A stretch of 64,000 bases of DNA from NCBI RefSeq assembly GCF_000733765.1, contig NZ_JPOG01000001.1, positions 2,232,001 to 2,296,000 of the forward strand. The letters run 5' to 3'. Position 1 is the stretch's first letter. Each line of letters opens with the position of its first letter. The stretch comes from Algiphilus aromaticivorans DG1253 (GTDB lineage Bacteria > Pseudomonadota > Gammaproteobacteria > Nevskiales > Nevskiaceae). Below, one piece after another: positions 39,342-51,215 of the stretch. The notes under the pieces were generated by a model. It worked only from the letters and a program-made list of their open reading frames with translations. It had not been told where the DNA came from and ran no database searches. The position numbers and the translations under genes were made by a program.

Positions 39342-39625
39342 GAGGGCGGTGACAAAAGCACTAAGCTCGGCATCTCTACCCTGTCCGGCGCTCGACCGTT
39401 TCGTCGTGAACGAAACGGCGTGTCAGCCCCGACGAGGTCAGGCACGGGGCTGCGCCTGACCAATGCTCATGTCTTGCCCCATACACTGCGCTACCAGCGC
39501 TCCAGACAGCATCGACCTGCGGTTGCGCAATACGTTTTGTAAACACCCTCCAAGGCTGCCGCCCTAGGTTCAGGGGTGATTCATTGCACCCCGGTAACCT
39601 CGAAGCTCCCGCGAGGTAGATCGCC

Positions 39626-49310: not shown

Positions 49311-49387
49311 CGGGGTGTAGCTCAGCTTGGTAGAGCGCTTCGTTCGGGACGAAGAGGTCGTAGGTTCGAATCCTGTCACCCCGACCA
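49311..49387 (+). tRNA. tRNA-Pro (CGG)
   Basis: 77 bases including an encoded CCA. The acceptor stem CGGGGTG pairs with CACCCCG, the discriminator is A, the anticodon stem-loop is CTTCG-TTCGGGA-CGAAG with anticodon CGG, and the T loop is TTCGAAT. It lies 21 bp after ispB, perhaps on the same transcript. Confidence 0.97.
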
Positions 49388-49655
49388 ATCCTGTTTTCCT
49401 GTGACCTCCGTGTTTCCAGCAGCCCTTGCGGGCTGCAGAGGTCGTAGGTTGTTCGCGCCATCCATGGCGCGAACCCTTCGGGCTCCCTGCGGTCGCGTGG
49501 ATCGGCTTTCCTGCCGATCCATCGAATCCTGTCACCCCGACCAATCCTGTTTTCCTGTGACCTCCGTGTTTCCAGCAGCCCTTGCGGGCTGCAGAGGTCG
49601 TAGGTTGCGCTGGCCTTCCATGGCCAGCGCCCTTCGGGCTCGCTGACGCTCGCGC
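49366..49655 (+). repeat. tRNA-Pro 3'-end repeat array with two-hairpin inserts
   Basis: The 85 bases from mid T-loop of tRNA-Pro (49366) to 49450 recur identically at 49522-49606, with a 71-bp insert (49451-49521) between them. The repeat holds the tRNA 3' end with CCA, a 50-bp spacer, and a fresh copy of the bases before the T loop (GAGGTCGTAGGTT). The first insert is a hairpin (49451-49474), a core CCTTCGGGCTCCCTGCGG (49475-49492, running to 49497) and a second hairpin (49498-49521). A second insert begins at 49607 with a different hairpin (49607-49630) and the same core (49631-49655), then the pattern is lost. This explains the lack of any gene from 49388 to 49737. Confidence 0.85.
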
Positions 49656-49737
49656 AAATCCGCTCCATATTGATTCGAGACGCTATTGAAGACCGGAATC
49701 CGGTTACAGTGCGCCTAGGCCCCAACCCTCTCGAACG

Positions 49738-50813: not shown

Positions 50814-50904
50814 GGAGGGGTGTCCGAGCGGTCGAAGGAGCACGCCTGGAAAGCGTGTATACGGTAACCCCGTATCGAGGGTTCGAATCCCTCCCCCTCC
50901 GCCA
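50814..50904 (+). tRNA. tRNA-Ser (GGA)
   Basis: 91 bases with encoded CCA. The acceptor GGAGGGG pairs with CCCCTCC, the discriminator is G, the anticodon stem-loop CACGC-CTGGAAA-GCGTG gives anticodon GGA, a long variable arm is as expected for serine, and the T loop is TTCGAAT. Confidence 0.97.
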
Positions 50905-50958
50905 AATCCTTGCGACGCGCCTAAGTTGGGCACGAACGCCGAGCCAATCGAAACCTCC

Positions 50959-51215
50959 AGGGATTCGAACCCTCGATAGATAGTGAATGAGTTCGACCAC
51001 CCGGCGAGAGCCGGGTGGCGCGAGCGAAGCGAGCCCGGAGGGCGCGCCGGCGAAGCCGGGGCGCAATCCCTCCCCCTCCGCCAAAATTCAACACTGCGCT
51101 CGATTCGCTTAACGGCAGCATGATGACTCAGCGCACCAGGGATTCGAACCCTCGATAGACAATGAACAGGTTCGACCAGCCGGCGCGAACCGGGTGGTGC
51201 GAGCAAAGCACGCCC
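50959..51215. repeat. tRNA-Ser-derived repeats with two-hairpin inserts
   Basis: A 19-bp inverted copy of the tRNA-Ser T arm (50874-50892) lies at 50959-50977 and again at 51138-51156. After the first comes an insert with a hairpin (50997-51018), a core of CGAGCGAAGCGAGCCC type (51019-51042) and a second small hairpin (51047-51059), then a direct 19-bp copy (51065-51083) of the tRNA-Ser 3' end including CCA. After the second inverted T arm comes a mutated version of the same hairpin and core (to about 51215). The interval 50905-51298 holds no gene. Confidence 0.82.

Follow-up and report, generated by a model that had tools for sequence, protein, structure and literature searches.

A TLR array beside tRNA-Ser(GGA) of Algiphilus aromaticivorans, with units probably split in the T-loop by a small hairpin element

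What is the series of tRNA pieces that follows the tRNA-Ser(GGA) gene of Algiphilus aromaticivorans, how did it arise, and does it act on the tRNA beside it? The window, a stretch of 64,000 nucleotides (C1:2232001-2296000), comes from a genome of 3.8 Mb (G000), and coordinates are window positions unless prefixed. The initial annotation described Ser(GGA) as the second tRNA gene here with the same kind of array, partly inverted, and this is right, the sister array being located at tRNA-Pro(CGG). The Ser(GGA) array is composed of the following parts:

50814-50904, + strand: intact tRNA-Ser(GGA) (ARAGORN; Rfam RF00005, 56.2 bits)
50905-50958, + strand: spacer of unit 1, without + strand terminator-like site (terminator scan and reading)
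50959-50978, - strand: inverted T-arm copy of unit 1 (20/20 nt, 100% complementary)
50989-50996, + strand: remnant of the direct T-arm 5' half with a TTCGA end, unit 1 (sequence reading)
50996-51064, - strand: insert E of unit 1, complete (C1:2282996-2283064; covariance-model match, E-value 3e-8; DNA fold z -3.06)
51065-51085, + strand: direct copy from the T-arm 3' half through the acceptor strand to CCA (19 nt), followed by 2 trailer nt (21/21)
51138-51157, - strand: inverted T-arm copy of unit 2 (20/20 nt, 100% complementary)
51169-51175, + strand: remnant GGTTCGA, direct T-arm 5' half of unit 2 (sequence reading)
51176-51215, - strand: insert E of unit 2, truncated (80-nt block, 85% identity to unit 1)

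The two inverted T-arm copies and the direct copy of the CCA end had been noticed before and are real, the inverted ones being 20 nt long each instead of 19 nt and the direct one extending over 51065-51085 (21/21) instead of 51065-51083. On the + strand, unit 1 reads hairpin 2 - core - hairpin 1 inside the T-loop split TTCGA^ATCC, with one edge base of the insert ambiguous. This insert is one of the seven seed sequences behind the covariance model used below. Units 1 and 2 have an 80-nt block in common (85% identity) at a spacing of 179 bp. As read from the sequence, the insert of unit 2 is truncated near 51215 and no 3'-end copy follows, so the hairpin-core-hairpin layout that had been proposed for both inserts holds for unit 1 only, where the insert is complete and matches the model (E-value 3e-8). 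A greater age of unit 2 would agree with its truncated state and a broken hairpin pair, although the unit-to-unit differences cannot be polarised.

This architecture corresponds to that of the tRNA-linked repeats (TLRs), which are recognised by a 3'-terminal stretch of 18-19 bp that exactly repeats the 3' end of the tRNA or rRNA gene lying upstream (PMC8144298). Such a stretch is present in Ser unit 1 (51065-51083) and absent in the truncated unit 2. The position also agrees, with two units downstream of the tRNA and the first insert 91 nt past it. When the array was searched with Rfam, the tRNA alone scored above the gathering score, other matches (E-values up to 5) remaining below it. The regions downstream of Ser(GGA) in two genomes of one genus look unrelated by eye. 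The polyprenyl synthase gene neighbouring the array was found at 80 genome loci at 34-52% identity.

The sister array at tRNA-Pro(CGG) has a repeat unit of 156 bp and is built as follows:

49311-49387, + strand: tRNA-Pro(CGG) (ARAGORN)
49437-49450, + strand: direct copy of variable loop/T-arm 5' half, unit 1 (repeat comparison)
49451-49522, + strand: insert E of unit 1 (covariance-model match, E-value 9.1e-16; a model seed sequence)
49523-49543, + strand: direct copy of the tRNA-Pro 3' end, 21 nt to CCA (repeat comparison)
49593-49606, + strand: direct copy of the T-arm 5' half, unit 2 (repeat comparison)
49607-49678, + strand: insert E of unit 2, which by eye has lost its second hairpin (covariance-model match, E-value 3.7e-10)

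The array observation is real and is not an isolated accident. All tRNA genes detected in the genome by ARAGORN (43; 44 by Rfam) were compared with their own 3' flanks, whereby exact copies of at least 14 nt of the last 45 nt of the tRNA were sought on either strand within 600 nt downstream. Copies of the own 3' part were present at eight of the 43 genes, namely Lys(ctt), Ser(gct), Asn(gtt), Glu(ctc), Pro(cgg), Ser(gga), Thr(ggt) and Ser(cga), versus 7 among 1806 mismatched pairs of tRNA and flank, a rate that predicts 0.17 for 43 genes. Copies are thus not confined to Pro and Ser and also occur in the relatives described below, which speaks against independent accidents at these two genes. 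Two further arrays were found via the insert, at Arg(ccg), where the copy is slightly changed, and at Met, 22 kb from its tRNA; in the Thr(ggt) array the covariance model found no insert. An orphan array (G000 76028-76241) was considered as a tRNA-free insertion and rejected, as one of its two tRNA pieces matches tRNA-Met (full score over 33 nt), and this tRNA-Met stands 22 kb away beyond a mobile island.

Several tRNA neighbourhoods contain other features. The 22-kb stretch between tRNA-Met and its E array (L232, L233; G000:C1:74500-99200) encodes TniQ and AAA proteins (Pfam), a Mu-type transposase below the curated cut-off and, by reading, efflux-like products. The tRNA-Lys array (L234, 1193-1962, - strand) has two small genes between its E copies, one for a DUF4258 protein and one for a 149-aa protein without Pfam match, which may form a toxin-antitoxin pair. 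At tRNA-Ser(cga), genes for a LysR regulator and a short-chain dehydrogenase separate the array from another Ser-derived E unit (L235, 868-2675). An ORF with the group II intron reverse transcriptase domains RVT_1 and GIIM (L002, 1574-3070) has its listed start at the last base of tRNA-Gly(ccc), and a 24-nt copy of the 5' end of this tRNA lies about 800 nt upstream. A second insert type occurs upstream of the intact tRNA in the tRNA-Tyr/Gly/Thr cluster (G000 C1:2431756-2432506) and in L160 and L163, after tRNA 5'-end copies that stop in the D-loop behind GG.

Read side by side, the arrays follow a common order: the intact tRNA, its trailer (with a terminator-like hairpin in some arrays), often an inverted T-arm piece, the direct T-arm 5' half, which ends in GGTT or GGTTCGA, the insert E, and then the remainder of the tRNA from the T-arm 3' half through the acceptor strand to CCA. 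Once E is left out, the T-arm is contiguous again. E is about 70 nt long and consists of a flush left hairpin, a core near CCTTCGGGCTC-CT-CG-TCGCG and a flush right hairpin, followed by T; because this junction T is ambiguous, the exact cut of E is uncertain by one base. E has the orientation of the tRNA at Pro, Lys, Asn, Arg and Met and the reverse one at Ser and Glu, and one palindromic target, T^CGA, fits both orientations. The stems of E are maintained by compensatory changes. In the seven-copy seed, both sides had changed in 13 of 17 pairs, with 29 double-change cells versus 11.0 in shuffles. The alignment of 123 matches (113 distinct rows), which was fitted to the covariance model and leans towards it, has 91.8% of cells paired and 498 double-change cells, versus 144.4 after shuffling and at most 81 in slid controls. 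Folded as DNA, four inserts gave z values of -6.49 (Pro), -3.06 (Ser), -5.99 (Lys) and -1.09 (E. coli). Dispersed repeats with a CACTAAACTCG...CTCGTTAAGTG-like arm, the first hairpin in common with E, were observed outside recognisable tRNA copies (L192, L194, L198, L199, L201).

How far does E extend beyond this locus? The covariance model was built from seven seed sequences, five of which are from the own genome and match by construction. This genome holds 25 model matches at an E-value ≤ 1 and 15 at ≤ 1e-4, 14 of the 15 lying in tRNA-derived arrays by eye. A weak match in the window (39395-39460, - strand, E-value 1.4e-4) lies outside nearby ORFs of ≥ 120 aa and its flanks are not clearly tRNA-derived. 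Within the order, at least 37 of 85 genomes have a match at ≤ 1e-4; across the class, sampled more widely, the figure is 44 of 185 genomes at ≤ 1e-5. Of 28 class loci read by eye, at least seven have tRNA T-arm flanks and others lie away from tRNAs.

Among the matches listed, the order set examined comprises 123 E copies; they come from 89 loci and represent 24 of the 37 genomes with a match. In either orientation, E splits a tRNA T-arm that is continuous without it: when the two flanks of E were joined, they matched the T-arm of a tRNA from the same locus in 38/123 copies, versus 17/601 with tRNAs from other loci. As the 123 copies were chosen for holding E, 38/123 is no estimate for tRNA genes at large. 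These 38 copies are distributed over 31 tRNA loci and 17 tRNA labels, one of which is a dubious ARAGORN call (anticodon agca), with 31 copies in the same and seven in the inverted orientation. In 28 of the 31 loci the nearest E copy lies 46-127 nt past the tRNA, and 23 of the 38 units have a 3' copy that agrees with the tRNA without mismatch over 19-21 nt. The 85 copies that fail the T-arm test include, by eye, tandem copies abutting E, copies with the tRNA beyond the fetched locus, and copies remote from tRNAs, and part of them are clearly not tRNA-linked. E is associated with a wide range of tRNA genes, and it is also present away from them. About a dozen E copies of one genome (G026, L239-L251) have constant flanks in common and are therefore not independent insertions; six loci of this genome carry an inverted E pair resembling a REPIN dimer. 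By eye, two further loci (L338, L354) have E within apparent D-loop copies (tRNA-Ser and tRNA-Arg), here located upstream of the intact tRNA.

The flanks may point to a short target. The left flank of E ends in TT in 100 of the 123 copies and in GTT in 87, also away from tRNAs. One relative carries a nearly whole tRNA-Ser copy (L155, genome G032; 88/91 nt, CCA not kept) whose T-loop is split by 71 nt. It stands upstream of the intact gene, its own upstream sequence resembles that of the intact gene, and it is preceded by the tail of another such tRNA-Ser unit. Its insert has an E-like layout, yet gave no model match at an E-value ≤ 1e-4, and the single match of this genome, among the matches listed, lies elsewhere. 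A comparison of trailers, which took 30 of the 38 T-arm-joined copies, found the sequence behind the 3' copy to resemble the trailer of the intact tRNA in 10 of 19 last units, in some perfectly, with no detectable duplication in 9 of 19; without the three last units that have a further tRNA copy behind, the trailer is duplicated in 8/16. The 10/19 indicate a tandem duplication of the tRNA 3' part together with its trailer in a good share of cases. An inverted T-arm piece of ≥ 6 nt lies within 36 nt of E in 13 of the 38 units (versus 3 after shuffling), while 25 lack it. Such a piece is unexplained by plain insertion and may mark a fold-back step.

Taken together, the Ser(GGA) feature is probably a TLR array whose units are duplicates of the tRNA 3' part, the T-loop of each being split at T^CGA by a non-autonomous mobile element E of about 70 nt. 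The duplicated part would comprise T-arm, acceptor strand and CCA, with the trailer included in about half of the tested cases. E may move as hairpin-folded DNA through an enzyme acting in trans and would prefer a TT^ target, the T-loop GGTT^CGA being one example. As an insertion into a single-copy tRNA gene would be lethal, insertions would be seen beside an intact tRNA copy. The tandem duplication may have come first or may have been made by the insertion event itself, and arrays would grow and decay via recombination between repeats. The enzyme search, which covered Y1 transposases, gave none for E, and close relatives showed no empty/filled pair at a single site; the present mobility of E is therefore something we infer.

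Whether the array acts at the RNA level was weighed on predicted folds and on the neighbouring terminators. The 402-nt RNA of 50814-51215 has a minimum free energy of -176.1 (z -4.58 versus shuffles), and its T-arm (50874-50892) is predicted to pair with the second inverted copy (51138-51156). A precursor of 147 nt, which stops short of the first inverted copy, keeps the T-arm hairpin in the fold, and its acceptor strand is predicted to mispair with the spacer. Terminator-like hairpins occur ≤ 55 nt after CCA in 10 of 28 arrays of the own genome and relatives (shuffle mean 0.3), so some arrays are probably little transcribed with their tRNA; for Ser(GGA), scanning gave no + strand terminator between tRNA and array, so read-through may occur there. 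An action of the inverted copies on the tRNA-Ser precursor, by mispairing or attenuation, would draw on both predicted pairings and on this missing terminator-like site. We regard it as very improbable, however, since minimum-energy predictions leave out the maturation enzymes and the order of synthesis, tRNA-Ser alone is predicted to fold as a cloverleaf, a terminator-like hairpin precedes the array in those 10 of 28 other arrays, and 25/38 units are without an inverted piece of ≥ 6 nt in the tested place. The effect on tRNA maturation that the initial annotation had held conceivable is possible on paper but unsupported. Most likely, the Ser(GGA) array is a passive scar without a needed role in tRNA maturation. 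The main rival to this is that the units are functional RNA genes, in which read-through from the tRNA would yield small RNAs with a tRNA-like matured 3' end, by analogy with the rrA, rrB and rrF TLRs of E. coli. According to PMC8144298, these three rRNA-linked TLRs are transcribed by read-through of the first terminator and then processed, and bind Hfq and CsrA in vitro. The 3' copies identical to the tRNA in 23/38 units and the covarying stems would suit such a role, which we nevertheless judge unlikely: inserts lie in either orientation (31 same, seven inverted), E is also found away from tRNA genes, and the 19 TLRs of E. coli tRNA operons score < 0.01 as CsrA-regulating RNAs (PMC8144298).

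At the DNA level, the units could instead be remnants of small site-specific integrations, in which a tyrosine recombinase attaches at the tRNA T-arm/3' end, the tRNA is restored and a 3' copy is left at the far end, sometimes with cargo genes. Several 3' copies do end at CCA without a recognisable duplicated trailer (9/19), and genes lie between copies in the Lys (DUF4258 and its neighbour), Ser(cga) (SDR/LysR) and Met (22 kb, TniQ/AAA/Mu-type) arrays. This account appears quite unlikely, as duplication proceeds past CCA into the trailer in 10/19 (8/16) last units, which is unexpected for the duplication of an attachment site, and E itself occurs away from tRNAs. An assignment of E to the ordinary REP/REPINs, mobilised by a RAYT (Y1) transposase, is the least credible of the alternatives, and indeed highly improbable. 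E is a short dispersed palindrome, some copies of G026 are paired inversely, and Y1 genes are present in 8 of 14 genomes examined. The Y1_Tnp (REP-type Y1 transposase) model, however, had no match in the own genome nor in five other E-bearing genomes, which make up the six without Y1 genes, among them G030 despite its at least 17 E matches. Moreover, at the eight fetched Y1 loci (of 10 Y1 matches) no match to the E model was better than an E-value of 0.13, and the left boundary is mostly TT^, with no GTAG tag seen at the flanks of E when read by eye. A variant of our favoured reading, the insertion of E into the T-loop, goes further: a miniature hairpin family in many genera of the class would target the T-loop, and the insertion itself would regenerate the tRNA by copying its 3' half, leaving the inverted T-stem. 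We consider this unlikely; if true, target-repairing transposition would make TLRs, those at E. coli tRNAs included, with a second account needed for the 5S-linked ones.

If the insertion reading is true, tRNA genes shelter tiny elements as well as large islands, and the origin of the tRNA TLRs becomes testable by the comparison of close strains. If tRNA-linked TLRs are T-loop-interrupted 3' ends, their constant 18-19 bp in E. coli would be the distance from T-loop to CCA. 5S RNA has no T-loop, so the T-loop reading cannot cover all TLRs and the 5S-linked ones need another account. In E. coli, the rRNA-linked TLRs carry a copy of the final 18 bp of 5S RNA (PMC8144298).

The closest known system is indeed that of the E. 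coli TLRs. These were first described in 1978, and E. coli K-12 has 22 units at ten loci, with one to five units per locus; no function was known before PMC8144298, which cites Egan and Landy 1978 and Rudd 1999 on the E. coli K-12 TLRs, those of tyrT/rttR included. We compared 54 E. coli K-12 tRNA genes at 13 loci, which are a part of its tRNA genes. The tyr, lys and arg loci yielded 13 copies, each 18-19 nt long and beginning with ATCC or AATCC of the T-loop; a 12-nt match inside tufB was taken as chance. The lysQ and lysV units carry 13-nt inverted T-arm copies and the tyrT unit, by eye, a shorter inverted piece. The break in these E. coli repeats thus falls at the T-loop position seen here, and their constant length would follow from this. 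The E model gave two matches in 66.5 kb of E. coli sequence, both beside TLR tRNAs, with non-significant E-values of 1.2 and 2.2, and by eye the words CCCGAAGGGC and GAGCGAAGCGAG are common to E and the E. coli inserts, in a different order.

Other systems resemble E in part. REP/REPIN sequences with RAYT, which are characterised by a GTAG or CGTC tag at the hairpin foot and by a RAYT/Y1 gene flanked by the repeats, are likewise short, palindromic, dispersed and non-coding, and sometimes tandem or paired. E has a TT^ boundary, no GTAG tag was seen when its flanks were read by eye, and there was no Y1 match in the own genome and no significant E match at the eight Y1 loci fetched. Integrative elements attached to tRNAs similarly have an intact tRNA at one end and a 3' fragment at the other, sometimes with genes between; the E units, in contrast, are short without evident gene, have their insert inside the T-arm copy, and duplicate the trailer too in 10/19 last units (8/16 on the stricter count). 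The palindromic elements of Rickettsia have been described from protein genes. E resembles these elements, which are mentioned in PMC3733652, in being palindromic and inserted inside genes, and differs in sitting in spare tRNA copies, not in protein genes. A T-loop insertion behind TLRs is not described in the titles and abstract openings of the open-access literature searched. Within that literature, the kind of array (TLR) is known. Apparently new are the reading as an insertion into the T-loop and several traits of the mobile-like insert: its stems covary, its orientation is free, it has copies remote from tRNA genes and it is spread over many tRNA species. With the E. coli TLRs, the arrays share the location downstream of a tRNA, the one to several units, the 18-19 nt 3' end with the same T-loop start and, in some units, the inverted T-arm piece; E differs in its hairpins flush at both ends, its occurrence in either orientation and its presence at many tRNA species across the order.
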